A DNA stretch of 64,000 bases from Rhodococcus yunnanensis NBRC 103083 (GTDB taxonomy: Bacteria > Actinomycetota > Actinomycetes > Mycobacteriales > Mycobacteriaceae), in the NCBI RefSeq assembly GCF_001895005.1, contig NZ_BCXH01000009.1:1-64000 (forward strand), written 5' to 3'. A program made the translations under genes and the position numbers. How positions within the stretch are numbered: position 1 is the first letter of the stretch; every line of letters starts with the position of its first letter. Under the pieces are notes generated by a model. That model searched no databases, had not been told where the DNA came from, and was given only the letters and a program-made list of their open reading frames with translations. This document shows, one piece after another, positions 4 through 61,097 of this stretch.

Positions 4-275
4 GTGAGCGAGGGCGACATTCGGTCACCTTAAAGTGTGCGAATGTCACATTCGGTCACCCCAAAGTGAGCGAATGGCACACCCAGTCACTCAGAGTGTG
101 CGAGGGCGACATCCGGTCACCTCAGACTGAGCGAATGTCACATCCGGTCACCTCAGAGTGAGCGAATGGCACACCCAGTCACTCAGAGTGTGCGAGGGCG
201 ACATTCGGTCACCCCAAAGCGAGCGAAGGTGACATCCGGTCACCCCCAAAGCGAGCGAAGGTGACATTCGGTCCA
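4..275. repeat. Array of nine ~25-bp near-palindromic repeats (locus 1)
   Basis: Nine units of about 25 bp lie at a 30-31 bp period, separated by 5-6 bp. The best units read as arms GTGAGCGAATG and CATTCGGTCAC around a TCA centre, so each is an imperfect palindrome. Three subtypes are visible: A (core GAATGTCACAT), B (core GAGGGCGACAT) and C (core GAATGGCACAC ending CCCAGTCAC). Their order is B-A-C-B-A-C-B followed by two diverged units with GAAGGTGACAT. The array may extend left of the window. It lies just downstream of the TetR gene. The function is unknown. Confidence 0.9.
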
Positions 276-47866: not shown

Positions 47867-49021
47867 GTGAAGGTGCCCGAACCGACACCCGAGGCCGCGG
47901 CCACAGTTCCGCGCCGCCGGAACCGGCTCCGCCTGTTGAAGTGGGTTGCAGCATTCGCCCTCGTCGCATTGTTGATCGGCGAGGGGATCTACCTGTGGCC
48001 GAGACTGCACGAATCGTGGACAGCGCTCACCGAGATTCACTGGGGCTGGCTCGCGGCGTGCATCTTCGCGCAAGCTGTGTCTCTGAGTGCGTTCGCTCGG
48101 GTGCAGAAGCAGCTCCTTCAGGCCGGCGGCGTGCGCGTCAGGCAATCCAAATCGGTTTCCGTGATCTACGGCAGCACCGCGATGTCCTTGACGCTCCCCG
48201 CGGGACAGGTCTTCTCCACCGCCTTCACCTACCGCGAGACCCGGCGGTGGGGTGCCAGTCCCGTCGTCGCGTCCTGGCAGTTGGCCATCTCGGGCGTCAT
48301 TGCAGCGGCAGGGCTCGCCGCGCTCGGCGTCGGCGGCGCGCTGCTAGTCGGCGGCTCGGTCAGCACGTTCACGCTGGTCCTACCCATCGTCGGTGTCGCG
48401 GCCATCGTGTTCGGCGTCCGCTACATCTCTGCGCACCCGCAAAGCATCAGGGCGTCTGCGGGCTGGGTTCTGCACAGGGTCAACAACTTTCGCAACCAAC
48501 CTCCCGACGCCGGCCAGGGACGGATCGACGAGGTCATCGAACAGATCCAGTCGGTTCGACTCGGCAAGCAGGACGCGGCGCTGACTCTGTCCTGGTCGGC
48601 GGTCCACCGTCTCGCCGACGTCGCCTGCCTCGGCTTCGCATGCTTCGCCGTCGGCTCCGACCCTCGACTGTCCGGCCTGTTGATCGCCTTCGCCGCGGGC
48701 AAAGCCGTCGGATCCGTCCCACTGGCACCCGGTGGCCTCGTCATCGTCGACGCCACCCTCATCGCCTTTCTCACCAGCGCTGCCAGCATCAGCGCCTCGC
48801 AGGCCGTCGCCGCCGCGTTCGTGTACCGAGGCGTCAGCTTCATCCTCGTCGCCATCGTCGGCTGGATCGTCTTCCTCGTCCTGTTCCGCAAGCACCAACA
48901 CGAGGACCTGCACTACGACATCGCGATGGAACAGCGCGAGACCCAAGAACTCCACAAGGGTGCCCAAGCCGCCCGCGAGGGTAATCCAGAAGTCGACTCG
49001 TCGGACCCCGAATCCGCCTGA
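47867..49021 (+). CDS. Lysylphosphatidylglycerol synthase-like / UPF0104 membrane protein
   Basis: This approximately 384-residue membrane protein resembles the flippase half of MprF/AglD (LPG_synthase_TM). About eight membrane segments are visible, with family motifs RVQKQLLQAGGVRVRQSKSVSVIYGSTAMSLTLPAG near the N-terminus and GKAVGSVPLAPGGLVIVDATLIAFL toward the C-terminus. The second is the PxxPGGxGxxE-like segment, with Asp in place of Glu. The start is uncertain: GTG 47867 lies 12 bases after GGAGGG; GTG 47873 or the upstream 47792 are possible. It probably moves a lipid or a lipid-linked sugar. It ends before a repeat array. Confidence 0.75.
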   Translation: MKVPEPTPEAAATVPRRRNRLRLLKWVAAFALVALLIGEGIYLWPRLHESWTALTEIHWGWLAACIFAQAVSLSAFARVQKQLLQAGGVRVRQSKSVSVIYGSTAMSLTLPAGQVFSTAFTYRETRRWGASPVVASWQLAISGVIAAAGLAALGVGGALLVGGSVSTFTLVLPIVGVAAIVFGVRYISAHPQSIRASAGWVLHRVNNFRNQPPDAGQGRIDEVIEQIQSVRLGKQDAALTLSWSAVHRLADVACLGFACFAVGSDPRLSGLLIAFAAGKAVGSVPLAPGGLVIVDATLIAFLTSAASISASQAVAAAFVYRGVSFILVAIVGWIVFLVLFRKHQHEDLHYDIAMEQRETQELHKGAQAAREGNPEVDSSDPESA

Positions 49022-49037
49022 CTTCCCCCTGCCCGGA

Positions 49038-49308
49038 GTGACCGAATGTCACCCTCGCGCACTCTGGGGGGGTGACCGAATGTCGCCCTCGCGCACCTGA
49101 CCACACCGAATGTCGCCCTCGCTCACTCAGAGTGACCGAATGTCGCCCTCGCTCACTCAGAGTGACCGAATGTCGCCCTCGCACACCGCGGAGTGACCGA
49201 ATGCGACATTCGCTCACCTGACCACACCGAATGTCGCCCTCGCTCACTCAAAGTGACCGAATGTGACATTCGCACACCGCGGAGTGACCGAATGTGACAT
49301 TCGCTCAC
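49038..49308. repeat. Array of nine ~25-bp near-palindromic repeats (locus 2, inverted)
   Basis: These are the same repeat family as locus 1 but in the opposite orientation: units read GTGACCGAATG..., with either CATTCGCTCAC or CCCTCGCTCAC as the right arm. Nine units are present. Two are joined to the next by an identical abnormal junction (ACCTGACCACACCGAATG), which points to duplication of a block within the array. It lies between the membrane protein stop and the yceI promoter. Confidence 0.9.
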
Positions 49309-49311
49309 CCA

Positions 49312-49343
49312 AACCCCCGAACCCCCGAACCCCCGAACCCCCG
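49312..49343. repeat. Four perfect AACCCCCG tandem repeats
   Basis: Four identical 8-bp units immediately follow the palindromic array. A related C-rich, A-punctuated tail (ACACCCCCAAACCCG, around 59839-59854) follows array locus 4. These flanks may be part of the same element. Confidence 0.85.
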
Positions 49344-49411
49344 ACCGCCAGTGAGTGGGCTGAATCACATAACAATCCGGGGGAATAGATGCGGACCCCG
49401 GTCCGCTTGTG

Positions 49412-49434
49412 TAGTATGCAACTTGAACCTTCAA
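49412..49434 (+). promoter_or_regulatory. yceI promoter with palindromic operator
   Basis: A TAGTAT -10-like hexamer (49412-49417) is followed about 5 bp later by the perfect palindrome TTGAA-CC-TTCAA (49423-49434), which would sit at the transcription start. A repressor of the MarR type could block initiation there. No strong -35 is visible. GGAG lies 6 bp before the yceI ATG. Confidence 0.5.
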
Positions 49435-49450
49435 CCAATCAGGAGCTGCC

Positions 49451-50002
49451 ATGACTACCGCGATCGCATTGCCCGAACTGTCCGCAGGAACCTGGAACAT
49501 CGACGCCACGCACTCGACCGTCGGATTCACCGTCCGCCACCTGGTCGTCAGCAAGGTCCGTGGCCGTTTCCAGACCTTCAGCGGTGCCATCACCGTTGCC
49601 GCCGACGGAACGCCTTCCGTGAAGGCCGAAATCGACGTCACCTCCATCACCACCGACAACGAGCAGCGTGACGGCCACCTCAAGACCGCTGACTTCTTCG
49701 AGGTCGAGAAGTACCCGACCGCTACCTTCACCTCCACCTCCGTCAAGGCCGACGGCGGCGACTTCATCGTGACCGGTGACTTCACCCTGCACGGTGTGAC
49801 CAGGCCCGTCGACCTGAAGCTCGAGTTCAACGGCGTCAACCCGGGCATGGGCAACGGACCGGTTGCAGGCTTCGAGGCCAGCACCGTCATCAACCGCAAG
49901 GACTTCGGCATCAGCATCGACATGCCCCTCGAAGGCGGCGGCGCTGTCGTCGGCGACAAGATCGTGCTGAACCTCGACATCGAAGCAGGCCTGGCTGCCT
50001 GA
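49451..50002 (+). CDS. YceI family lipocalin-like protein
   Basis: This 183-residue protein has the complete YceI signature. The opening GTWNIDATHSTVGFTVRHLVVSKVRGRFQTFSG is followed by ITTDNEQRDGHLKTADFFEVEKYPTATFTSTSV, then DFTLHGVTRPVDLKLEFNG. There is no signal peptide, so this copy is cytoplasmic. The family forms an elongated beta barrel that binds polyisoprenoid-type lipids. AGGAG precedes the ATG. Homologues in actinobacteria are often stress- or alkaline-induced, and the operator-like palindrome upstream would fit regulated expression. Confidence 0.93.
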   Translation: MTTAIALPELSAGTWNIDATHSTVGFTVRHLVVSKVRGRFQTFSGAITVAADGTPSVKAEIDVTSITTDNEQRDGHLKTADFFEVEKYPTATFTSTSVKADGGDFIVTGDFTLHGVTRPVDLKLEFNGVNPGMGNGPVAGFEASTVINRKDFGISIDMPLEGGGAVVGDKIVLNLDIEAGLAA

Positions 50003-50044
50003 TCTTGCTTCGCGCCCGTGAGCGCGAATCGAAGCCGAGAACAA

Positions 50045-50086
50045 CTGTGCGCGCAGGGGTATGGGAAACCAACCCTGCGCGCACAG
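50045..50086 (+). terminator. Hairpin terminator after yceI
   Basis: A perfect 14-bp stem, CTGTGCGCGCAGGG (50045-50058) with its complement (50073-50086), has a 14-base loop. It lies 43 bp after the yceI stop. A T-tract is absent, as is usual for actinobacterial terminators. Confidence 0.7.
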
Positions 50087-50153
50087 TCGTATCCACCATC
50101 GCACAGCCGTATCCGATACCGCACGGTCGGCGGAGCCGCATAGGGTGGGTCCG

Positions 50154-50531
50154 GTGAACAAGCGCAGCCCGATCATCGCCGCCGTCATAGACCTCGTTGC
50201 GGTCCTGATCTTCTGTGCAATCGGCAGACGCAGCCACGACGAGGCGAATGCCCTGACGGGGCTCGCGCACACCGCGTGGCCGTTCGTCGCCGCTGCCGTC
50301 ATCGGGTGGGGTCTGACGATTGCGCTCTACCGCGACAAGTTCGACGCGTTCCTGATCCTCCCGACGGGGATCGTCGTCTGGGTGTCGACGGTTCTGTTCG
50401 GCATGATTCTTCGGGTCGTCAGCGGTCAAGGGACAGCGTTCAGTTTTGTCGTCGTCGCGACGATCGTGTTGGCCGTATTCCTCATCGGATGGCGTGCGCT
50501 TGCCAAGTTGGTACCGATCCCGAAAAACTGA
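50154..50531 (+). CDS. DUF3054 family membrane protein
   Basis: This 125-residue protein has four membrane segments (about residues 8-25, 40-58, 68-88, 92-114). The DUF3054 pattern includes DLVAVLIFCAIGRRSHDEA after the first segment and a WP-type second segment (AWPFVAAAVIGWGL). GTG 50154 is used because the first membrane segment then starts at residue 7. The family is common in actinobacteria with unknown role. It is followed by the peptide transporter gene 45 bp later. Confidence 0.8.
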   Translation: MNKRSPIIAAVIDLVAVLIFCAIGRRSHDEANALTGLAHTAWPFVAAAVIGWGLTIALYRDKFDAFLILPTGIVVWVSTVLFGMILRVVSGQGTAFSFVVVATIVLAVFLIGWRALAKLVPIPKN

Positions 50532-50576
50532 CGCCATCGTCCCGAATTTCGCCCCCTCACATGGGACAGTTCACAT

Positions 50577-52025
50577 ATGGCCGATGTGAAAGACAAGCAG
50601 GACACCGGGTTCTTCGGGCAGCCGTTCGCGCTCGCGAATCTGTTCGGTGTGGAGATGTGGGAGCGCTTCTCCTTCTACGGGATGCAAGGCATCCTCATCT
50701 ACTACCTGTACTACTCGGTGGCCGACGGCGGACTCGGTATAGCGGAGAGTTCGGCGACGTCGATCGTCGGCGCATACGGCGGAACCGTGTATCTGTCCAC
50801 CATTCTGGGCGCGTGGATCGCCGACCGACTTCTCGGCTCCGAACGCACACTGTTCTACAGCGCGGTCCTGATCATGTTCGGTCACATCGCCTTGGCCGTT
50901 CTGCCCGGATTTCTCGGTGTCGGAGTCGGTCTGGTTCTCGTCGCATTCGGTAGCGGTGGTCTCAAGGCCAACGCGACGTCGTTGGTCGGTGATCTGTACG
51001 GCGAGCACGACACCAGACGAGATGCGGGCTTCTCGCTGTTCTACATGGGCATCAACATCGGTGCGTTCATCGGTCCACTCCTCACCGGCCTCGCGTGGGA
51101 CAAATTCGGTTTCCATGCCGGATTCGGGCTCGCTGCAATCGGTATGGCGCTCGGGCTGATTCAGTACACCCTCGGCCGCAAGCACCTGCACGGCATCGGT
51201 GCGACGCCGCCCAACCCATTGCCCGCTTCGGAGCGAATCAAATGGTCCGCAATCGGTGTCGCGGCCATCGCCGTCGTCGCACTGTTGTCGATCTTCGGTG
51301 CGATCCAGGCGTCGAACCTGTCCGACATCGTCGTCGGCGTCACCATCGTTGCCGCCGTCGGATACTTCGCACTCATTCTCTCCAGCAAGAAGATCACACG
51401 GATCGAACGCCGGCGGGTCATCTCGTTCATCCCGATGTTCATTGCAAGCGCCGCATTCTGGTCGCTGTTCCAGCAACAGTTCACGACGGTACCGCTCATC
51501 GCGGACACCAAACTCGACCGCAACCTGTTCGGGTGGGACTTCCCTCCGTCGTGGGTACAGTCGATCAATCCGGTGTTCATCATCATCTTCGCGGGAGTGT
51601 TCGCGGCGATGTGGACCAAGCTCGGCACACGGCAGCCGTCGACACCGCTGAAATTCGTTGCGGGCGTGTCGATCATGGGCCTGGCATTCCTGGCATTCGT
51701 TCCTTCGCTGGCGGGAACCAGCATGCCGCTGCTCGCCCTCGTCGGCATTCTGCTGCTGTTCACGTTCGCCGAGCTGTTTCTTTCACCCGTCGGGCTGTCG
51801 CTGTCCACCAAGCTCGCACCGGAGAACTTCCACACGCAGATGGTGGCGCTGTTCTTCCTGTCCGTCGCGCTCGGCTCGGCGATGGCGGGCACACTCGCGG
51901 GCTACTACGACGAGGACGATCCCAACCCGTTCTTCCTGACGGTCGGCCTGGCGTCGATCGGGGTCGGCGTCGTTCTCCTACTGCTGACGCCGTGGATCAA
52001 GAAGATGATGAGCGGCGTGCAGTAG
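50577..52025 (+). CDS. POT/PTR2 family proton-dependent peptide transporter
   Basis: This 482-residue MFS protein of the POT branch carries the proton-coupling ExxER motif in VEMWERFSFYGMQGILIYYL, the PTR2 signature FSLFYMGINIGAFIGPLLTG, and the second-half SPVGLSLSTKLAP. About fourteen membrane segments are expected. It imports di- and tripeptides with protons. It ends one base before the convergent TauE gene, with no terminator in between, so antisense readthrough is possible. Confidence 0.95.
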   Translation: MADVKDKQDTGFFGQPFALANLFGVEMWERFSFYGMQGILIYYLYYSVADGGLGIAESSATSIVGAYGGTVYLSTILGAWIADRLLGSERTLFYSAVLIMFGHIALAVLPGFLGVGVGLVLVAFGSGGLKANATSLVGDLYGEHDTRRDAGFSLFYMGINIGAFIGPLLTGLAWDKFGFHAGFGLAAIGMALGLIQYTLGRKHLHGIGATPPNPLPASERIKWSAIGVAAIAVVALLSIFGAIQASNLSDIVVGVTIVAAVGYFALILSSKKITRIERRRVISFIPMFIASAAFWSLFQQQFTTVPLIADTKLDRNLFGWDFPPSWVQSINPVFIIIFAGVFAAMWTKLGTRQPSTPLKFVAGVSIMGLAFLAFVPSLAGTSMPLLALVGILLLFTFAELFLSPVGLSLSTKLAPENFHTQMVALFFLSVALGSAMAGTLAGYYDEDDPNPFFLTVGLASIGVGVVLLLLTPWIKKMMSGVQ

Positions 52026-52763
52026 CTATTTCCACAACAGCCACGCGGCAAGACCGAGACCGCATATTCCGACGGCGATACGCAGGACCGTCGGCGGGAT
52101 GACCTTTACCACCGGTGGTCCGCAGTACCCGCCTGCGAACGCGCCGAGGGCGAGGGCCAGCGCCGCGAGCCAGTTCACTTCCCCGGAGAACGCGAAGATC
52201 ACCGCGGCGACGAGATTCGCGACACCGAGGAAGAAGCTCTTCAGAACGCTTGCGCGCCAGATCGAATCGGACGTACACACGAGCGCGAGGGCCAGAAAGA
52301 TGACACCTGCACCGGCGCCGAAATATCCGCCGTAGATCGCGACGAAGAACAGCGCGATCGGATACAGGGTCGGAAACTCTCTGTGCCCCGACATCTTTCG
52401 CAACTTCGGTTGCAGAAGCAGTGCAACAGCGGCGAAGGCCACCAGAAACGGCACGACGACCTCGAAAGAACCGGGCGGAGCCAGCAGCAGTACAGCTGCA
52501 CCGATCAGACCGCCGAGGCCCGAGTAGATGGCGAACCGAACCAGCTGCTTTCCGTCCTTCGCCAGTTCGGACGACGCATTGGTCGTGGCTCCCACGCCGA
52601 CTGCAACCATCGCCACGGTGTTGGTGACGTTCGCTGCGACCGGTGGCAGCCCGGCAGCCAACAGTGCCGGATAGGACACCAGCGAGGCCATACCGGTCAC
52701 GAACCCGACGAGGCCGGCGAAGAAACCGGCGACGACGAGCAGACCGAATTCGAGCAGAGTCAC
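52026..52763 (-). CDS. TauE/SafE (sulfite exporter) family permease
   Basis: This 245-residue protein has about eight membrane segments in two repeats. The family opening GFFAGLVGFVTGMASLVSYPALLAAGLPPVAANVTNTVAM and the later FFVAIYGGYFGAGAGVIFLALALV and GAFAGGYCGPPVVKVI show the repeated G-x-x-G-x-G pattern. Members transport sulfite, sulfoacetate or other organosulfur anions. GTG 52763 is the start. The 7-bp perfect hairpin GGGTAGT-AAA-ACTACCC (52764-52780) directly precedes it and could act as an operator. A link to the sulfonate-type monooxygenases elsewhere in the window is possible but not shown. Confidence 0.88.
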   Translation of the reverse strand: MTLLEFGLLVVAGFFAGLVGFVTGMASLVSYPALLAAGLPPVAANVTNTVAMVAVGVGATTNASSELAKDGKQLVRFAIYSGLGGLIGAAVLLLAPPGSFEVVVPFLVAFAAVALLLQPKLRKMSGHREFPTLYPIALFFVAIYGGYFGAGAGVIFLALALVCTSDSIWRASVLKSFFLGVANLVAAVIFAFSGEVNWLAALALALGAFAGGYCGPPVVKVIPPTVLRIAVGICGLGLAAWLLWK

Positions 52764-52787
52764 GGGTAGTAAAACTACCCTTGCTCA

Positions 52788-54437
52788 CTACTCGGCTCTG
52801 CCGGAGTCCATTTCGCGAATCAGGTGGGTGCTCATCTTCACTGCCTGGTCGGTACCGTCGGCGTTCTCGATGTACACCGCGAACGCGAGATCACCGCGAT
52901 TGGCGATGAACCAGCGATCGTCACCGCTGTTACCGGCGAATCCGGTCAGCCCGCCGTAGGAGTCGAGGCCCTCGGCATGGGCCGAGTTCTGCAGCATCTC
53001 CCGCAGGCGTGCCAACGCGTCGGGTGCGATCGAGTCACTCGTCTTGTCGGCGACGGCTGTCTGACCCGCAACGATGAACGGCAGCGGGGCGGCACCACGA
53101 GCTATCGACGCACCGATCTGCGCGAGACCGAACGGTGTGACGGCGCTGTCCGTGGTTTCGTTGCCCACGGTGCGGATGCGATCGATCGAGTTGTTGCCCG
53201 ACGGAATCTGTCCGGTGTACGCGTCGAGCCCGGGCATCGCGTAGTTGACGCCGAGACCCAGCTGCGTTGCATTGTCGCTGTCACCCGAGCGGACGACGTC
53301 GAGCAGGTCTTTCGCCGAACCCAGTGGATACATCCCGGAGAACGCGATCTGTCCCTGCTCGTTCGCGTAGCTGTTCTGCGCCGCTGCGACGACCGCACCG
53401 GTCGAGGGAACGATCGCGACGATCGACGCGGGTGTCCCGACGCTGACCACTGCTTCCTCTGCCGCCAACTGAATTCGCGGGTCGAGCGTCGAGTGCAGGT
53501 CGGGACCTGCGGGTCCCTGGAATCCGGCTTGACGGGTCACCGAGCCGTCGGGCCCGGTGACGTCGATGCCCCATCCGGCGGTCGAGTCGCGATTCTCCTG
53601 CCACGCGTTTCGCAGCGAATCCAGCAGAGGCGAGGTGATACGACGGTCACCGGCGATCAACTTGGGCGTCTGTGCGACGACCACACCGGGGATCGCACGT
53701 AGATCCTCCTCGAGGACGGCGAAATCGTCGTCGCGCAGATTGACCGCGAGGATCGAGCTACCCGGCGTCGCAGCGAGCTCGTCCTGCAGCGAGCCTGCGG
53801 TGATCAACGGTGCAACGACATCGATGACGTCGGCCAACCGCGCTGTGGACGCGGCGGGATCCTGCATACGGGTGGGATCGAGCAGGATCGCGTTGATGGT
53901 CCGTTCGTTCATGAGGACGTTCTGAGCGGCGTCGAACACCAATGGTGGTGGCGCATCGGTGCGCACATAACGGACGGACCCACCACCAGGCAGGTCCGGT
54001 GCGAGAATGTCGGGCTCCCAGCTGATGCGCCACCCGACGCTGAGTTTCTTGGCGGTGCCGCGGGTGGAGTACGCCCAGTCCTTGCCGTCGCCGAAGTTCC
54101 AGTCCGAGGCGAGGGTGAAGAATCCGGAGGAGTCGTCGAGACCGATGAACTGCGAGACCTCGAATTCGCCCGTCGGTGGCCCGCCTCCCGCCAGACCGTC
54201 GAACATCTGCGAGATGCTCGACGCCGCGGCGTTGGGATAGGACGTCAGATCGGCTGCTGCCTGGACGTCACGATCGTTGAGTGCTGCGACGAAGTCGTCG
54301 ATCAACGCGGCGCCTTCGCTCGGCGGTTTTTCGAGCATCCACACCGCACCGGTAGCGGTCAGCGCAAGACTCGCCCCCACAGCAACTACATAACGTCCCC
54401 GTATCGCACCCACGCGCGCCGCCCTCCCAGAACCCAT
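52788..54437 (-). CDS. Penicillin-binding protein-like transpeptidase paralogue with lost catalytic motifs
   Basis: The protein has 549 residues with an N-terminal membrane anchor (about 14-36), then an NTF2/MecA_N-like domain (VAALNDRDVQAAADLTSYP), a dimer domain, and a transpeptidase domain (from about 330). It is clearly homologous to the neighbouring 607-residue PBP. The active-site serine motif is S374-A-K-D instead of SxxK. The stretch that holds SxN in the neighbour (FARSCNTT) is missing, and KTG is replaced by FAG (GLTGFAGNSGDD). It therefore cannot be an active transpeptidase and is probably a regulatory or scaffold pseudo-enzyme. The frame is intact, which argues for selection. Confidence 0.85.
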   Translation of the reverse strand: MGSGRAARVGAIRGRYVVAVGASLALTATGAVWMLEKPPSEGAALIDDFVAALNDRDVQAAADLTSYPNAAASSISQMFDGLAGGGPPTGEFEVSQFIGLDDSSGFFTLASDWNFGDGKDWAYSTRGTAKKLSVGWRISWEPDILAPDLPGGGSVRYVRTDAPPPLVFDAAQNVLMNERTINAILLDPTRMQDPAASTARLADVIDVVAPLITAGSLQDELAATPGSSILAVNLRDDDFAVLEEDLRAIPGVVVAQTPKLIAGDRRITSPLLDSLRNAWQENRDSTAGWGIDVTGPDGSVTRQAGFQGPAGPDLHSTLDPRIQLAAEEAVVSVGTPASIVAIVPSTGAVVAAAQNSYANEQGQIAFSGMYPLGSAKDLLDVVRSGDSDNATQLGLGVNYAMPGLDAYTGQIPSGNNSIDRIRTVGNETTDSAVTPFGLAQIGASIARGAAPLPFIVAGQTAVADKTSDSIAPDALARLREMLQNSAHAEGLDSYGGLTGFAGNSGDDRWFIANRGDLAFAVYIENADGTDQAVKMSTHLIREMDSGRAE

Positions 54438-54596
54438 GCCCCATCTTAGTCACTCCAGTCACACGCGTAACAAGCACGGGATACACACACTCTGGTCACG
54501 ATTGCGCTACACCCCACCGCCCGCCACGAAATGCGTGACCATATGTTGACCAATCGTGACTGCCATTACAAGGGTATGAATGCCTCGAATATGCAG

Positions 54597-56420
54597 TCAG
54601 CGCAGGAACCTCCCCGCGGCCTCGAGCGCAGGGGCCGAACTCTGACCGCCCGCCACGAACACCGCGAACGCAAGATCGCCCTGAATCCCGACGAACCAGC
54701 CGTGCGCGCCTTCGTTGTTCGGCCCGAATTCTGCGGTGCCCGTCTTACCCAGCAGCCCGGGAATGTCCTGGAGCTGCGTCGCGGTCCCGCCGGTCACCGT
54801 CTCACGCATCATCGTCCGAATCTGCTCGGCAACCTGGGCGTCCACGGGAGGCGGGGTCGTATCCGCCGTTCCCGGCTGCCCGCTGACCAGCGTCGGCGCC
54901 GTCAGCGCACCACGTGCGATCGACGACGCCACCAGCGCCATCCCGAACGGCGACGCCGTCACCTGCCCCTGCCCGATGGCCGATTCGACGCGTTGCGCCG
55001 GGGTGTCGGCGAGAGGGACGCTGCCGGTGACGGTGGTCAGGCCAGGGGTCACGTAGTCGACGCCGAGGCCGTACTGCAACGCGGTCTGCTGCAACCCGTC
55101 GGCCGGGAGCCCGACGCCGAGGCGTCCCATCGTCGTATTGCACGACCGCGCGAAGGCCGTGTGCAGCGGAACGGCACCGAGGTCGAAGTTGTCGTCGTTC
55201 GGGATCTGCCGTCCTTCGATGTTCTCGGTGCCCGGGCACGGGAGGATCGTGTCGGGGGTGGCGGTACCCGCTTCGAGAGCCGCCGAGGTGGTCACCGTCT
55301 TGAACGTCGATCCAGGCGGATACAGACCGGTCAAAGCGATGGGACCTTCGGCGTCGGCCGCGGCGTTCTGCGCCACGGCGAGAACGTTGCCGGTCGACGG
55401 CTGCACAGCGACGATCGCGGACTGCTGCGGCAACGACGCCAACGCGTTCTCGGCTTTCAGCTGCAGGCCGGTGTCGAGCGTCGTGGCGATGTCGGGGGCC
55501 GCTGTGGCGTCGATACCCGCCAGCTGTTCGACGGTTCCGTCGGCTTTCACCGCTTGAATCGCCCACCCCCTGTTCTCGACGAGCTGCTGCTGCCACAGAT
55601 CGGATACGCCGGCCAACGCGGGCGAGGCCAGGGTGCGGTCGGTCGTCAGCAACCGTGTCTGCGGGGCGAGCGTGACGCCGGGCAGTGCAGCGAGCGGCGC
55701 CGCGATCGGATCGACGTCGGACTGCCGCAGCGGTACCACCGTCACGGTCTTTCCTTGTGCGGCAGCTAGATCCGAGGCAATCGACTCGGCGGTGATCGTG
55801 GGCACGACCCTGCCGATGTACGACGCGACAGCGGCAGGGTCGGCCGCGGCGTCGACGTTCACCAGGGTCACGACCTGTTGCGACATCAGTTCACCACCTG
55901 CGCGGTCGAACACCTTCGGGGTGACGAGTGCATCGGTCGGGGTGTATCGAATCGTGGTGTCGGCAGCCAATCCCGGAGCCAGAACGGCGGGATCCCAGTC
56001 GATCTTCCAGCCCTGATCGGTCTCGGTCGCCGTTGCCTGCGTGTCGTACTGCCACTGCTTGGGTTCGCCGTCAGGCTCCTCGGTGCCGTCGGTCGTCGTC
56101 GAGAAACGCCACGTCGCATCGAGTGTCACCTCTGCACCCTCCTCGGAGGTGGATGCGACGGCGAAGTCCGGGGTGGCGGTGACGGTTCCGCCTGCACTCA
56201 AGCCGTCGTACAGGCCGGTGAGCGCCGCGGACGCGGCGGCAGGATCGGTGGTGAGCGCCGCGGCTGCGTCGGCGGCGCCGCTGTTGACGGCATCGACGAA
56301 CTGCTGAGCTGTGGTCTGTGGTTCGGGTGGACCGTCGTCGCTGCATCCGGCGAGGACCAGTGCCACGGCAGCTACGAGGGCGGAAACCGTCTTCTTCGAT
56401 GTGCGCACAAACCCGATCAT
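54597..56420 (-). CDS. Penicillin-binding transpeptidase lipoprotein (PBP-lipo type)
   Basis: This is a 607-residue lipoprotein class B PBP. The lipobox is LVLAGC (Cys about residue 26). An NTF2/MecA_N-like domain (about 35-150) precedes the dimerisation domain, and the transpeptidase domain has complete catalytic motifs: S371-T-F-K374 (YPPGSTFKTVT), S426-C-N428 (ARSCNTTMG) and K559-T-G561 (LLGKTGTAEFG). It would cross-link peptidoglycan outside the membrane and bind beta-lactams. The layout equals mycobacterial Rv2864c. It lies upstream of the inactive paralogue on the same strand, 159 bp away. Confidence 0.93.
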   Translation of the reverse strand: MIGFVRTSKKTVSALVAAVALVLAGCSDDGPPEPQTTAQQFVDAVNSGAADAAAALTTDPAAASAALTGLYDGLSAGGTVTATPDFAVASTSEEGAEVTLDATWRFSTTTDGTEEPDGEPKQWQYDTQATATETDQGWKIDWDPAVLAPGLAADTTIRYTPTDALVTPKVFDRAGGELMSQQVVTLVNVDAAADPAAVASYIGRVVPTITAESIASDLAAAQGKTVTVVPLRQSDVDPIAAPLAALPGVTLAPQTRLLTTDRTLASPALAGVSDLWQQQLVENRGWAIQAVKADGTVEQLAGIDATAAPDIATTLDTGLQLKAENALASLPQQSAIVAVQPSTGNVLAVAQNAAADAEGPIALTGLYPPGSTFKTVTTSAALEAGTATPDTILPCPGTENIEGRQIPNDDNFDLGAVPLHTAFARSCNTTMGRLGVGLPADGLQQTALQYGLGVDYVTPGLTTVTGSVPLADTPAQRVESAIGQGQVTASPFGMALVASSIARGALTAPTLVSGQPGTADTTPPPVDAQVAEQIRTMMRETVTGGTATQLQDIPGLLGKTGTAEFGPNNEGAHGWFVGIQGDLAFAVFVAGGQSSAPALEAAGRFLR

Positions 56421-56494
56421 GCCTGAGTCGTGGCGAATTTCTCAGTATCGGTGTAATTGTGTAAGTGTGTAATCAATCAACCTCAGGAGATGTC

Positions 56495-57040
56495 ATGAGA
56501 CAGCACGGAAGAAAATTCGGGCGCCCCGGCGGCTGGCAACAGGCCGATGTTCCCGACGCGGTCGACGCAGGCGAATGGTTCAGCGGCAGGCTTCCCGACA
56601 GCTGGTTCGCAGGTGACGCCACCGTCGAGATCGACCGCGAGGAAATCGTCGTCATCGGCGAACTGCCCACCCCCGAGGACGCGTCGACGGCGTCGACCGA
56701 AGGCCGGATCGCGCGGTTCCGAGAGACCACACGCCAGGAGAGAATGCAGATCGCTGACGAGGCAGAGGCTCGATACGGACGCAAGGTCGCGTGGGGCGTC
56801 GCCGTCGACGGTGAAGCAGTGCTCTTCACTCACCTGGCAGTGCCGGTGATGACGAGGCTTCGTCAGCCCGAGCGCAAAGTGCTCGACACTCTGGTCGACG
56901 CCGGTGTGGCGCGCTCGCGTGCCGATGCACTGTCCTGGGCCGTCAAACTCGTCGGCGAACACACCGAGGAGTGGCTCGGCGAGTTGCGTGAGGCCATGAG
57001 CAAGGTCGACGACCTGCGCAAGAAAGGCCCCGCGTCGTAA
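56495..57040 (+). CDS. Conserved-looking hypothetical protein
   Basis: The protein has 181 residues with a good AGGAG before ATG 56495. The N-terminal 25 residues are basic and Gly-rich (RQHGRKFGRPGGWQQADV). A middle acidic beta-like part contains EEIVVIGELPTP, and the C-terminal helical half (KVLDTLVDAGVARSRADALSWAVKLVGEHTEEWLGELREAM) resembles a ribbon-helix-helix or helical dimer in form. No signal peptide or membrane segment is seen. I do not recognise the family. A GTGTAA-like triplet repeat precedes it (about 56455-56473). It is divergent from the PBP gene. Confidence 0.7.
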   Translation: MRQHGRKFGRPGGWQQADVPDAVDAGEWFSGRLPDSWFAGDATVEIDREEIVVIGELPTPEDASTASTEGRIARFRETTRQERMQIADEAEARYGRKVAWGVAVDGEAVLFTHLAVPVMTRLRQPERKVLDTLVDAGVARSRADALSWAVKLVGEHTEEWLGELREAMSKVDDLRKKGPAS

Positions 57041-57101
57041 ATCAGTTGCGCAAGGACCGCGGCGGGGTTTAACGTTGCTTTCGCCTTGTTGCCAACAGAA
57101 T

Positions 57102-57169
57102 CGGAGAGGCCGTTGCTCTTCTAGAGGTCAGTTCGCTTGCTTGTACGCACGCACACCTCTGGAGCAATC
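57102..57169 (+). promoter_or_regulatory. Possible attenuator leader of the ABC-F gene
   Basis: GGAGAGG (57102-57108) is followed by a three-codon frame TTG CTC TTC TAG (57112-57123). Its stop codon runs into AGAGGT (57123-57128), which is complementary to ACCTCT (57155-57160) directly before the GGAG ribosome site of the ABC-F gene. Ribosome-controlled leaders are common for ABC-F antibiotic-resistance genes. The stem is short and the reading frame minimal, so this is only a candidate. Confidence 0.3.
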
Positions 57170-58747
57170 ATGTCTACTTCTTCACTGCGCATTTCCGATC
57201 TTTCGTTCACCTGGCCCGACGGCGATCCGGTTTTCGACGGCCTCGATGCCGTGTTCCCCAGCAGCAGAACAGGTCTCGTCGGATCGAACGGTTCAGGCAA
57301 GTCCACTCTGCTCAAACTCGTAGCCGGGGAGTTGATCGCACAGAGCGGATCGATCACCGTTCCCGGCACGCTCGGCTACCTTCCCCAGGACATCGCACTG
57401 CGGGCGGGCCGACGCGTCGACGAGATCCTGCGGTTGCGCGAGCTGCGAGAGGCGTTGCACCGCATCGAGTCCGGCACTTCGAGCGAGGACGACTTCGCGA
57501 CAGTCGGTTCGCGATGGGATGCCGAGGAGCGTGCGGTCGCCCTGCTGGACAAGCTCGGTCTCGGCCACATCGTCTCCGAGCGCGCCGATCTGGATCGGGT
57601 GGTCGGGTCGTTGTCCGGTGGTGAATCGATGCTGCTCGCGCTCACGGCGGAACTGCTGGCCGAGCCCGATGTCCTGCTGCTCGACGAGCCGACCAACAAT
57701 CTCGACATCGACGCCCGCCGTCACCTCCACCAGGCGATCACAGCGTTCAGCGGCGTACTGATCGTGACGAGCCATGACCTCGAACTTCTCGAGATCATGG
57801 ACGGCACGGCGGAAGTGCGCGCCGAGCGTGACGGCATCACGCGGTTGCGAATGTTCGGCGGCAACTACGCCCACTATCGCGACGTCGTCGATGCGGAACA
57901 GGAGGCAGCACGCGCGGCACTGCACGACGCGAAAAACGATGTGCGCAAGCAGGAACGCGAACTGGTAGAAACACGAACCAAGCTCGACCGACGCCTGCGG
58001 TACGGCAAGAAGATGGCCGAACAGAAGCGGGAGCCCAAGATAGTCATGGGCAATCGCAAACGGGCGGCGCAGGTTTCGGCCGGCAAGTTGCGCAACAACC
58101 ATCTGGAGAAGGTCGACGACGCCCAAGCCGCACTCGCATCCGCCGAGGATCGACTGCGTGACGACAGACAGGTACGCGTCGACCTGCCTGCGACCGAGGT
58201 CCATGCGGGGCAGAAGATCGTCGAGATCGACGAGCTCGACATCGTGGGACCGGAGCGGATCGCGCTGATCGGCCCGAACGGCAGCGGCAAGACGACGTTG
58301 TTGCGTGCACTCGAATCGGCAGGGCCATCGGTGCCGTGGCGGTATCTACCCCAGCGGCTCGACGTGTTCGACGAGTCGAAGACGGTCGCGGAGAATGTCG
58401 CCGACGTCGCCGAACACGCGTCGAACGAGCAGATTCGAGCACAGTTGGCGCGCTTCCTCTTCCGCGGAAACGACGCCGATGCCGTCGTGGCAACCCTGTC
58501 CGGCGGTGAACGATTGCGGGCCGCACTCGCCCGGATCCTGCTCGCCGAGCCTGCGCCGAGATTCCTCATGCTCGACGAGCCGACCAACAACCTCGACCTC
58601 GCCAGCAGAGCACACCTCACCGAGGCCCTCGCGGGGTATCGGGGTGCCCTGATCGTCGCGAGCCACGACCTGGCGTTCCTGCGCGATCTCGGGCCGACGA
58701 GGTGGGTGGAGTTGGAGCGAATGTCACATTCAGTCACCTCGGAGTGA
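57170..58747 (+). CDS. ABC-F family ATP-binding protein
   Basis: This 525-residue soluble protein has two ATPase domains. The first has Walker A GLVGSNGSGKSTLLK, signature LSGGESMLLAL and Walker B LLLDEPTNNLD. The second has Walker A ALIGPNGSGKTTLLR, signature LSGGERLRAAL and Walker B LMLDEPTNNLD. They are joined by a charged coiled linker (about 240-330, KRELVETRTKLDRRLRYGKKMAEQKREPK). There are no membrane segments. Such proteins act on the ribosome; several actinobacterial members protect it from antibiotics. ATG 57170 with GGAG upstream is chosen. Its last residues (ERMSHSVTSE) are encoded by a unit of the intergenic repeat family. Confidence 0.92.
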   Translation: MSTSSLRISDLSFTWPDGDPVFDGLDAVFPSSRTGLVGSNGSGKSTLLKLVAGELIAQSGSITVPGTLGYLPQDIALRAGRRVDEILRLRELREALHRIESGTSSEDDFATVGSRWDAEERAVALLDKLGLGHIVSERADLDRVVGSLSGGESMLLALTAELLAEPDVLLLDEPTNNLDIDARRHLHQAITAFSGVLIVTSHDLELLEIMDGTAEVRAERDGITRLRMFGGNYAHYRDVVDAEQEAARAALHDAKNDVRKQERELVETRTKLDRRLRYGKKMAEQKREPKIVMGNRKRAAQVSAGKLRNNHLEKVDDAQAALASAEDRLRDDRQVRVDLPATEVHAGQKIVEIDELDIVGPERIALIGPNGSGKTTLLRALESAGPSVPWRYLPQRLDVFDESKTVAENVADVAEHASNEQIRAQLARFLFRGNDADAVVATLSGGERLRAALARILLAEPAPRFLMLDEPTNNLDLASRAHLTEALAGYRGALIVASHDLAFLRDLGPTRWVELERMSHSVTSE

Positions 58748-58828
58748 GCGAATGTCACATCCGGTCACTTAGAGTGAGCGAGGGCGTCATCCGGTCACTC
58801 AGGGTGCGCGACTGGGCCATTCGCTCAC
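58713..58828. repeat. Array of four ~25-bp near-palindromic repeats (locus 3)
   Basis: There are four units in the same orientation as locus 1. The first (58713-58737) lies inside the ABC-F coding region, and the second overlaps its stop codon. The fourth is diverged (GTGCGCGACTGGGCCATTCGCTCAC core region). The array separates the ABC-F gene from the alpha/beta hydrolase gene by only about 110 bp. Confidence 0.9.
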
Positions 58829-58857
58829 CGGGTTACTGCCGGGTGCATGATGGACGG

Positions 58858-59655
58858 GTGGACTTCGCAACCAACCCGAACGACGGCATCCGGATCGCGT
58901 ATCAGGTCGTCGGCTCCGGACCGCCGCTGCTGCTGGTACATGGGAGCCTGCTGACGCACACGATCTGGCGAACATTCGGATACGTCAAGGCCTTACGCCC
59001 GAGCCGCGCGCTCATTCTCGTCGACATGCGTGGGCACGGTCGCAGTGACAAGCCGCACGAGATCGACGCATACCGAATGGACACCGTCACCGACGATCTC
59101 GTGGCGGTACTCGACGCAGCCGGAATCGCCAGGACCGACTACTGGGGATACTCGTACGGCGGCCGCGCTGGTCTGTCGCTGACGGCGAAAGCTCCCGAAC
59201 GGATCAGCAGCCTCATCGTCGGGGGTGGATCGCACGGGCCGCAGGCGGGCGCGTTCGATCGCCTGTTCTTCCCCGGGTGCGCGGACGTACTGGAAACACG
59301 CGGCATGGACGGCTTCATCGACGAGTGGAACAAGCACCGACTGTTCCCGGTGGATGCAGCCACCCGGGCGGTGTTTTCGGCGAACGACGCCTCCGCGATG
59401 GCAGCCTACTTTCGTGCATCCGACGTCGAACCGGGATTGTCCGACGAAGCACTGCGGCAGTTCACCGTCCCCAGTCTGTTCTATGTGGGGTCGCAAGATC
59501 ACACCCGTTTGGACGACGCGCACGCGGCAGCCGACCTGGTCCCCGGCGCTGAACTCCACCTCATCGACGGTTTCGACCACTCGACGACTCCCGCCGCGAG
59601 CACCGAGGTCCTCAGCGTCGTCCACCCCTTCCTTACAGTGCATCCTCAGGCATGA
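58858..59655 (+). CDS. Alpha/beta hydrolase
   Basis: The protein has 265 residues. The opening GIRIAYQVVGSGPPLLLVHGSLL contains the oxyanion HG. The nucleophile elbow is YWGYSYGGRAGL (GYSYGG), the acid is in VGSQDHTRLDDA, and the His is in LIDGFDHSTTP. This is the general hydrolase fold with complete triad candidates. GTG 58858 was chosen because upstream residues are only translated repeat units. The substrate is unknown. The gene is bracketed by repeat arrays at both ends, in the same orientation. Confidence 0.85.
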   Translation: MDFATNPNDGIRIAYQVVGSGPPLLLVHGSLLTHTIWRTFGYVKALRPSRALILVDMRGHGRSDKPHEIDAYRMDTVTDDLVAVLDAAGIARTDYWGYSYGGRAGLSLTAKAPERISSLIVGGGSHGPQAGAFDRLFFPGCADVLETRGMDGFIDEWNKHRLFPVDAATRAVFSANDASAMAAYFRASDVEPGLSDEALRQFTVPSLFYVGSQDHTRLDDAHAAADLVPGAELHLIDGFDHSTTPAASTEVLSVVHPFLTVHPQA

Positions 59656-59682
59656 CGGCGATCGGGTTCCGGTAACCTCGGC

Positions 59683-59833
59683 GTGAGCGAATGTCACATC
59701 TGGTCACCCCCGAGTGAGCGAGGGCGACATCCGGTCACTCAGAGTGAGCGAGGGCGACATCCGGTCACCCCCAAGTGAGCGAAAGCCACATCCGGTCACC
59801 ACCCCAACGTGAGCGAATGTCACATCCGGTCAC
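59683..59833. repeat. Array of five ~25-bp near-palindromic repeats (locus 4)
   Basis: Five units in the same orientation as loci 1 and 3 lie at 59683, 59714, 59744, 59775 and 59809. Subtypes A, B, B, a GAAAGCCACAT variant, and A follow one another. It fills the space between the hydrolase stop and the leader of the monooxygenase gene, and ends in a C-rich tail. Confidence 0.9.
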
Positions 59834-59894
59834 ACCCAAACACCCCCAAACCCGCGAACTCAGACCGAACCAGCAGAATACGCGATTGAATCAT

Positions 59895-59906
59895 CTTGAT
59901 TTCAAG
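59895..59906 (+). promoter_or_regulatory. Palindrome upstream of the SsuD-type gene
   Basis: CTTGA-TT-TCAAG is a perfect 12-bp palindrome 21 bp before the TTG start and 9 bp before the ribosome site. It resembles the TTGAA-CC-TTCAA element at the yceI promoter. It may be an operator in the 5' leader. Confidence 0.4.
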
Positions 59907-59927
59907 TCTGGCGCCGGGAGGGAAGAC

Positions 59928-61097
59928 TTGCCACAATCGGTCAACATGTCCCTGCGTTTTCACTGGTTCCTGCCCACGTACGGCGACTCGCGCAACCTGA
60001 TGGCCGGTGGCCACGGATCGTCGATGTCCGGTGATCGGCCGGCGACGCTGAAGTATCTGAACCAGATCGGCGCTGCGGCCGAGAACAATGGCTTCGAAGC
60101 AGTGCTCACCCCGACAGGTGCGTGGTGTGAGGACGCGTGGCTGACGACGGCCATGATGATCGACACCACCGAGACTCTCAAGTTCCTCGTAGCGCTACGG
60201 CCCGGTTTGCTCAGCCCGACTCTCGCGGCGCAGATGGCCGCAACTTTCCAGTGGCAGTCCGGCGGCCGGCTGCTGCTCAATGTCGTCACAGGCGGCGAGG
60301 ACCACGAGCAACGACGGTTCGGCGACTTTCTCGACAAGAACGAGCGTTACGCGCGCTGCGGCGAGTTCCTCGACGTGACCCGGAGGTTGTGGGCGAACGA
60401 TGGCCCGGTCAGCTTCGAGGGCAAGTACATCAAGGTCGAAGATGCTGCGCTGCAACGACATCCGAATCCGGTGCCGCCGATCTTCTTCGGCGGTTCCTCG
60501 CCCGCGGCAGGCACCGTCGCGTCGCAGTTCGCCGATACGTATCTGACGTGGGGTGAACCACCCGCCGCAGTGGCGTCGAAGATCGCGTGGATTCGGGATC
60601 TGGCCGAGGTACAGGGTCGCACACTCGATTACGGCATTCGCCTGCACGTCATTTCACGCGATACCTCCGAGCAGGCGTGGGCCGAGGCAGATCGCCTGCT
60701 CGGCAATCTCGATCCGCAGACGGTCGCGTCGGCGCAGGAAAGTCTGTCTCGCTCGGTCTCCGAGGGGCAGCGCCGTATGCGTGAACTTCACGGCGGCGGT
60801 GAGGCATACGTCAGCGGTGCCGATGCCCGCACCCTCGAGGTTGCACCGAATCTGTGGACCGGTGTCGGCTTGGTCCGCGGCGGAGCGGGCACCGCGCTCG
60901 TCGGTTCGCACGAGGAGGTGGCCGATCGTATCGCCGAGTACAGCTCCATCGGGCTCGACCACTTCGTGCTGTCCGGCTACCCACATCTCGAGGAGGCATA
61001 CCATTTCGGCGAGGGTGTCCGGCCCATCCTCGAAAAGCGTGGGCTCGTTCGCTCACGCGCCCGCGAAAACGCCTCTACAGGAACACCGTTCCTGTAG
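59928..61097 (+). CDS. FMNH2-dependent alkanesulfonate monooxygenase family protein (SsuD-like)
   Basis: This approximately 389-residue luciferase-fold enzyme carries the marks RFHWFLPTYGDSRNL at the N-terminus, NNGFEAVLTPTGAWCEDAWL, MAATFQWQSGGRLLLNVVTGGEDHEQRRFGD, and PPIFFGGSSPAAG, all of the SsuD/dimethyl-sulfone monooxygenase branch. It releases sulfite from sulfonates with reduced flavin. TTG 59928 was chosen because GGGAGGG lies 5 bases before it; ATG 59946 has no ribosome site, and upstream codons only translate repeat units. No transporter or reductase gene is adjacent. It converges on the acyl-CoA synthetase gene. Confidence 0.88.
   Translation: MPQSVNMSLRFHWFLPTYGDSRNLMAGGHGSSMSGDRPATLKYLNQIGAAAENNGFEAVLTPTGAWCEDAWLTTAMMIDTTETLKFLVALRPGLLSPTLAAQMAATFQWQSGGRLLLNVVTGGEDHEQRRFGDFLDKNERYARCGEFLDVTRRLWANDGPVSFEGKYIKVEDAALQRHPNPVPPIFFGGSSPAAGTVASQFADTYLTWGEPPAAVASKIAWIRDLAEVQGRTLDYGIRLHVISRDTSEQAWAEADRLLGNLDPQTVASAQESLSRSVSEGQRRMRELHGGGEAYVSGADARTLEVAPNLWTGVGLVRGGAGTALVGSHEEVADRIAEYSSIGLDHFVLSGYPHLEEAYHFGEGVRPILEKRGLVRSRARENASTGTPFL

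Follow-up and report, generated by a model that had tools for sequence, protein, structure and literature searches.

Tandem arrays of a REP-like palindromic repeat behind genes of Rhodococcus yunnanensis and related Rhodococcoides genomes

Repeats resembling repetitive extragenic palindromic (REP) sequences are usually explained by REP-associated tyrosine transposases (RAYTs). Mycobacterial interspersed repetitive units (MIRUs) occur in tandem and vary in copy number. In this study, we analyzed a palindromic repeat, termed family A, which forms four tandem arrays in a window of 64,000 nucleotides from Rhodococcus yunnanensis NBRC 103083 (contig NZ_BCXH01000009.1, positions 1 to 64,000), together with its copies in further genomes of the genus Rhodococcoides. 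As described in the relevant passages of PMC3116915, PMC3733652, PMC6006769 and PMC2817692, REP sequences, bacterial interspersed mosaic elements (BIMEs) and REP doublets forming hairpins (REPINs) are short, clustered extragenic palindromes that are lineage-specific and present in many copies, and family A resembles them in these respects. It has the size and siting by which REPs are recognized (a palindrome of 20-40 bp, extragenic, many copies) but differs from REP/REPIN systems in that it carries neither a GTAG nor a CGTC tag, occurs without a Y1/RAYT gene and is arranged in tandem at 30/31 bp. Passages of PMC3733652 name untagged REP-like families in Mycobacterium tuberculosis, Deinococcus radiodurans and others, and the CGTC-tagged or untagged repeats without a dedicated transposase treated there are likewise palindromic, dispersed and without a known mobilizer. 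Family A departs from the latter by its tandem arrangement and by the missing CGTC tag; the text of that paper does not contain the word 'actinobacteria', and its passages considered here do not name this genus. When the literature was searched with the sequences and by genus, no description of these repeats was apparent from the titles among the matches listed, a search that did not extend to origin-domain sites.

The repeat unit, GTGASCGAATGNNNCATTCGSTCAC, is a 25-bp near-palindrome that recurs with a period of 30/31 bp; judging from spacings of mostly 30-31 bp, the linkers between units measure mostly 5-6 nt. Locus 1 (4..275, plus strand) comprises 8-9 units with a higher-order period of 92 bp; its first base is only 3 nt away from the end of the contig (window position 1 is C9:1), so that the array is cut off by the assembly. 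Locus 2 (49038..49308, minus strand) consists of 9 units with higher-order periods of 91 and 121 bp and is found 16 nt 3' of the stop codon of a membrane-protein gene (Pfam LPG_synthase_TM), ahead of yceI. The 4 units of locus 3 (58713..58828, plus strand) are positioned between a gene for an ATPase that we read as ABC-F-type (57170..58747, plus strand; two ABC_tran stretches) and an alpha/beta hydrolase gene (58843..59655, plus strand), whereas the 5 units of locus 4 (59683..59833, plus strand) start 27 nt beyond the stop codon of the hydrolase gene; all gene boundaries are those of our own gene caller. These data uphold the description given in the initial annotation, according to which one palindromic unit recurs at four loci that are intergenic or run over gene ends, with loci 3 and 4 in direct orientation bracketing the hydrolase gene alone and locus 2 inverted. 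The orientation follows from positions 5 and 21 of the unit, which are asymmetric in G and C and in which loci 1, 3 and 4 agree. Within arrays of the genome carrying the window (G000; other G numbers denote further genomes of the genus), the units are on average 84% identical. A degenerate pattern of the unit matched the window 67 times with up to three mismatches, as opposed to 19.2 expected matches and none of 100 shuffles reaching this number, and a looser palindrome pattern occurred 65 times per strand in the whole genome while its reversed control did not occur at all; a chance origin is thereby excluded.

We consider it on balance probable that these arrays are an untagged, RAYT-less, REP-like mobile palindromic repeat that arose within Rhodococcoides and inserted behind genes. 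Locus 3 demonstrates the clean appearance of an array next to a stop codon: it is present in G000, and the three remaining repeat-bearing genomes with neighboring ABC-F and hydrolase genes lack it. These are the two R. kyotonense strains JCM 23211 (G003) and KB10 (G010) and the metagenome-assembled genome nzgw98 (G021), names that we assigned to the three genomes by common flanking sequence. In both R. kyotonense strains, the word 'ttggagcg' or 'ctggagcg' is directly joined to 'tgcatgatgg' and the ABC-F and hydrolase genes overlap; in G000, about 124 bp (58720..58843) lie between those words. G021 possesses a 29-nt gap at a junction that differs from that of R. kyotonense. Array length changes as well. 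At locus 2, an array follows the upstream gene or its orthologue in all six genomes inspected (G000 and five of five relatives), with 9 units in G000, 7 in G003, 4 each in G006 and G032 (where the downstream gene differs), three or four degenerate ones in G010 and a single one in G021. The G010 site was scored as empty by our array filter and is counted as filled, since degenerate units are visible there. Arrays thus change length at an orthologous site. Conversely, one array site of G006 and G032 is empty in G000, G003, G010 and G021. The number of units per array ranges from 1 to 13, and many units are degenerate. Identical linkers were found in 16.5% of the pairs within arrays and 2.6% of those between arrays in G000 (17.9 and 7.1% in G006); together with the higher-order periods of 91, 92 and 121 bp, these array-specific linkers point to local block duplication, in which several units are copied together.

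The location of the arrays relative to genes was assessed for 44 of them (20 in G000 and 24 in G006), in stretches picked around known copies. No called gene encloses any of them, and yet only 10-12% of these stretches is intergenic; the sampled copies sit behind genes, not within them. Three G000 arrays overlap a 3' end and one overlaps a 5' end. Median distances to flanking 3' ends were 26 nt (G000) and 53 nt (G006), compared to 129 and 172 nt to flanking 5' ends (p 0.003 and 5e-5, respectively). Convergent junctions are significantly overrepresented in G006, where they hold 10 of the 24 arrays as compared to 15% of the gaps. Twenty flanking proteins that we scanned, among them two PNPOx-like proteins and two hydrolases, revealed no evident functional theme.

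Occasionally, the repeat contributes coding sequence. The ABC-F stop codon (58745-58747) is the TGA of the second unit of locus 3, and unit 1, which overlaps the coding end, hence encodes the final residues (RMSHSVTSE) of this protein. A second G000 gene, for an ABC-3 permease, ends within a unit in the same frame (...ERMSPSLTLG, compared to ...ERMSHSVTSE for ABC-F), and the R. kyotonense hydrolase, in our reading of its sequence, likewise ends in ...ERMSPSVT.

Mapping the repeat beyond the contig, as the initial annotation had proposed, revealed a genome-wide family with a narrow distribution. A strict pattern, which diverged copies could escape, was matched in 11 of 37 genomes of the genus, all of one clade (clade A), and in none of 114 sampled genomes from the remaining family and order. 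A tree of the hydrolase that covers 30 genomes out of these 37 places the 11 on one side of a branch with support values of 92/87. At up to three mismatches, G006 and G032 contain 108 and 144 matches per strand. Among the places listed, tandem arrays dominate in G000, and perfect palindromes are frequently found as single copies in G006, G004, G018 and G028. The core of the unit reads AATGTSACATT in G000 and others, and AATGASACATT or similar in G006.

Clade restriction, sites present in one genome and absent from another, copy-number change, placement at gene ends, neighbors without a functional theme and the lack of covariation between paired positions (see below) all favor a mobile REP-like repeat. 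In mechanistic terms, new sites would be seeded by a trans-acting enzyme other than a Y1/RAYT transposase, arrays might then grow in tandem via slippage or unequal recombination, and gene ends may be favored because insertions there are least costly. The host would mostly tolerate the arrays, with a structured 3' untranslated region and short new C-terminal tails as presumable side effects. Eight dispersed composites of G006 and G032 resemble a replicating unit. They are about 133-143 bp long (seven in G006, one in G032) and consist of two palindromes flanking a related spacer (mean identity 71% over 7 aligned copies); the palindromy masks the orientation of the units. These doublets could be REPIN-like, and none was present in the G000 stretches. 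In composites of about 134 bp (L072, L076, L078, L088 and others), two family A palindromes enclose a structured spacer that features the motifs GCGCAGGTT.CAGC and GGTTGCAAC.

Several observations weigh against this interpretation. No target-site duplication is evident by eye at locus 3, and empty sites exact to the base are available for one insertion only, in the two R. kyotonense strains; judging from locus 3 alone, a deletion in the three relatives instead of an insertion in G000 is possible. The array at locus 2 is kept in all six genomes, which is more than a drifting insertion needs. Convergent junctions hold 3 of 14 arrays in G000, which is unremarkable when judged by gap number (p 0.43) and borderline by gap length (p 0.05). 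The occupation of the same two junctions by family A and by the sister family described below suggests retention or a hot spot. Finally, no mobilizing enzyme was identified, the search of the 11 genomes for Y1_Tnp having come back empty.

Among other known systems, MIRUs invite comparison. In the passages of PMC12548453 that concern them, these are short, intergenic, apparently mobile elements of mycobacteria inserted at overlapping stop and start codons. Their hosts belong to a related order, and the empty site of locus 3 (L006/L007), with its overlapping genes, might recall their targets at this locus only. In contrast to MIRUs, family A has a palindromic unit of 30/31 bp, is mostly found beyond stop codons and often between convergent genes, and at locus 3 provides no open reading frame coupled to the next gene (the ABC-F stop is at 58745-58747, the hydrolase start at 58843). 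Clustered regularly interspaced short palindromic repeats (CRISPR) differ even more, because the units of family A vary and are separated by linkers of 5-6 nt, and are not near-identical repeats alternating with unique spacers of repeat size.

The most surprising by-product of this analysis is the clustering of a second family, B, at the replication origin. Family B consists of doublets, two near-palindromes at a distance of 31 bp around CACTCAATGTGACATTCAGTGG-CCTTTTCGGGG-GTCAATGTCACATCGAGTGGACT, and was found at up to one mismatch in 14 other genomes of the genus but in none of the 11 of clade A. In the hydrolase tree, these 14 genomes fall together on one side of a branch (100/99) and are sister to clade A on the midpoint-rooted drawing. 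The 11-bp core AATGTSACATT is common to both families. In G022, 51 places matched family B with up to three mismatches (control: 1); leaving out 7 single places, they correspond to 16 doublet loci, 12 of which are located within 200 kb of dnaA on a chromosome of 5.3 Mb (1.2 expected, p 5e-11). This cluster spans G022 C1:3712015-3958946 and its equivalents (L152-L156, L206-L224), and many of the doublets listed for G024, G012, G013 and G035 lie at similar distances from dnaA. Orthologous doublets (74 pairs, retained when one flank reached an identity of 60% or more) are 93% identical compared to 75-79% for their flanks; for paralogous doublets (127 pairs) the value is 90%. Some places are occupied by either family. 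At two junctions separated by 1.9 kb, G000 has family A where the sister clade (G024/G022) has family B; family A is also seen at the first one in G006 and G032 and at the second in G032, the second being matched by a single flanking gene. The ABC-F/hydrolase junction likewise has A in G000 and B in clade B. For 8 of 13 G024 sites, a flanking-gene orthologue exists in the G006/G032 stretches, where two of the eight are occupied by a family A array. Given the same core and the common junctions, a common origin of families A and B is likely, albeit not proven. We also noticed that repeats occur at two junctions of a pyridoxamine-oxidase-like gene and its neighbors, of type A or B according to clade (L065:5431-8076; L154:3214-5521; L240).

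These findings bear on the proposal of the initial annotation that the repeats bind a chromosome-organizing protein. The palindromes would then be sites of a dimeric nucleoid or origin-domain protein, whose local occupancy is raised by arrays and with which the arms diverge between clades, a view that we hold to be rather unlikely. The near-fixed period of 30/31 bp, the symmetric half-sites, the use of both orientations, the lack of RNA-type covariation, the core in common with family B, and the origin-clustered doublets of the latter, better conserved than their flanks, would all fit such sites. Conversely, the occupied sites change from species to species, many units are degenerate, arrays comprise anywhere from 1 to 13 units, no protein was identified, and family A is not tightly clustered: in each of G006 and G032, 5 of the 35 loci listed are found within 200 kb of dnaA (2.3-2.4 expected, p 0.08-0.09). 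Among the loci listed, 23 of 35 (G006, p 0.09) and 25 of 35 (G032, p 0.017) fall in the origin half of the chromosome. Family A thus exhibits no tight origin or terminus cluster and a mild bias toward the origin side; the organizer proposal retains a low probability. A related scenario, to which we likewise assign a rather small likelihood, would derive both families, in view of their core, their neighboring clades and the one pair of junctions in common, from one palindromic site system whose outer arms changed in concert at dispersed sites and in step with a putative recognizing protein, B having become fixed 31-bp doublets of the origin domain and A tandem arrays behind genes; if true, a dispersed repeat would have been turned into an origin-domain mark. 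With its crowding around the origin, family B makes it possible to test concretely whether palindromic repeats can become chromosome-domain sites.

It is quite unlikely that the arrays are kept as bidirectional transcription terminators or as protectors of mRNA 3' ends. Their location close behind stop codons and the enrichment of convergent gene pairs in G006 would suit such a role, and five of six folded strands (pieces of at most 150 nt) were more stable than shuffled sequences (z -3.3 to -8.0; the sixth, -1.4). The pairing within units, however, amounts to 7.82 of 11 positions over 90 distinct G000 units and is below the 8.09 (standard deviation 0.06) obtained with shuffled columns; it is likewise below shuffled columns in G006 (67 units), G032 (11 units) and G003 (9 units). 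Paired positions therefore do not covary, which makes a maintained RNA hairpin unlikely, and we rejected this explanation on the basis of the four genomes. Moreover, positions 5 and 21 form a G.G mismatch in 70 of the 90 distinct G000 units, no U-tract is visible by eye 3' of loci 2-4, the arrays at L020 and L023 follow what by eye are complete intrinsic terminators, and orthologous gene ends manage without arrays. No known RNA family was matched up to E 1 in window positions 48900-60000.

Some elements are located, by eye, in the loop of an apparent intrinsic terminator hairpin, as if inserted there (e.g., ACGCCCGCCGG ... CCGGCGGGCGT). Such cases include L121, L137, L150 and L152 of family B and, in family A, G006 C1 at about 5254.3 kb and G032 C1 at about 1271.9 kb; L081 is a further case. 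Insertion into terminator loops was not enriched over permuted flanks (mean score 12.86 vs. 12.93 for 46 arrays), and a score of at least 24 was reached by 3 arrays compared to 1.1 expected, two of the three representing one orthologous site of G006 and G032. We therefore rejected it as a general rule, while single cases look real by eye.

A classical REP/REPIN system mobilized by a RAYT is very improbable. The size of the palindromes, their extragenic sites and the spacer composites of G006 and G032 would be compatible with it, as would GTGG, a tag variant of some REPs, which occurs within 6 nt of unit ends 17 times in G000 (140 units) and 4 times in G006 (48 units), a minority. Within the same distance, GTAG was found at none of the 188 units (140 from G000 and 48 from G006) and CGTC or its complement at 5 at most. 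The Pfam model Y1_Tnp, which matched in 5 of 14 known genomes used as a control, had no match in the 11 repeat-bearing genomes and matched one of the 37 genomes of the genus, a member of clade B. We accordingly rejected a RAYT/IS200 mobilizer. Of the suggestion in the initial annotation that the repeats are REP-like elements moved by an unseen transposase, the REP-like part stands, in the form of a genome- and clade-wide, length-variable family at intergenic sites and gene ends, and a transposase of the Y1 type was looked for with the Pfam model and not found in any of the 11 genomes. An actinobacterial palindromic family that turns over between species without a RAYT renders the mover or maintainer of such repeats a testable matter, and the clean present/absent site and the sister family with the same core make the question approachable.

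That the direct arrays of loci 3 and 4 make the hydrolase gene a cassette excised or duplicated by recombination is hardly credible: the two loci are 87% identical over 84 bp, but their longest exact common stretch is 25 bp, locus 3 is missing in relatives, 32 of the 37 genomes in the genus, with or without repeats, have a close homologue of the hydrolase (E 2e-91 or better), and in 30 of 30 genomes checked it either adjoins the same ABC-F gene or is no more than 3.1 kb away from it. The excision or duplication envisaged by the initial annotation is accordingly not borne out; a stable hydrolase gene combined with invariant arrays had been named there as the outcome speaking against the proposal, and the gene is stable while the arrays are variable. 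Most likely, the hydrolase gene is a bystander bracketed by arrays through coincidence. Its closest named relatives, at 78-80% identity, are those of the Rhodococcoides kyotonense strains JCM 23211 and KB10 and of the metagenome-assembled genome nzgw98, and units are present at its 3' end in 5 of the 11 clade A genomes (up to five mismatches). The ABC-F gene is directly adjacent in 22 of the 29 loci of relatives; in the other 7, the genes are 1.7-3.1 kb apart on the same contig. The seven genomes with separated genes (L162, L164-L169) belong to clade A, and at the two junctions that we read (G028 and G004) the intervening gene resembles, by eye, one for a SulP transporter.

Two further sources were rejected. 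A phage or plasmid origin found no support, since viral contigs contained no match to a strict two-unit pattern and plasmids no match to locus 4 at E 0.01. Half-sites of the kind expected for uptake signals were rarely found alone (in the stretches sampled, 1 of 93 lay outside palindromes in G000 and 2 of 54 did so in G006); nearly all are part of palindromes.

In practical terms, the arrays add short C-terminal tails to proteins and reach contig ends. Six of the 67 G000 contigs (C9, C10, C11, C12, C16 and C17) start or stop inside an array, and it is probably there that the draft assembly breaks. Finally, an 8-nt tandem repeat, CCCGAACC, present in 4.6 copies at window positions 49308-49344, directly abuts the array of locus 2.

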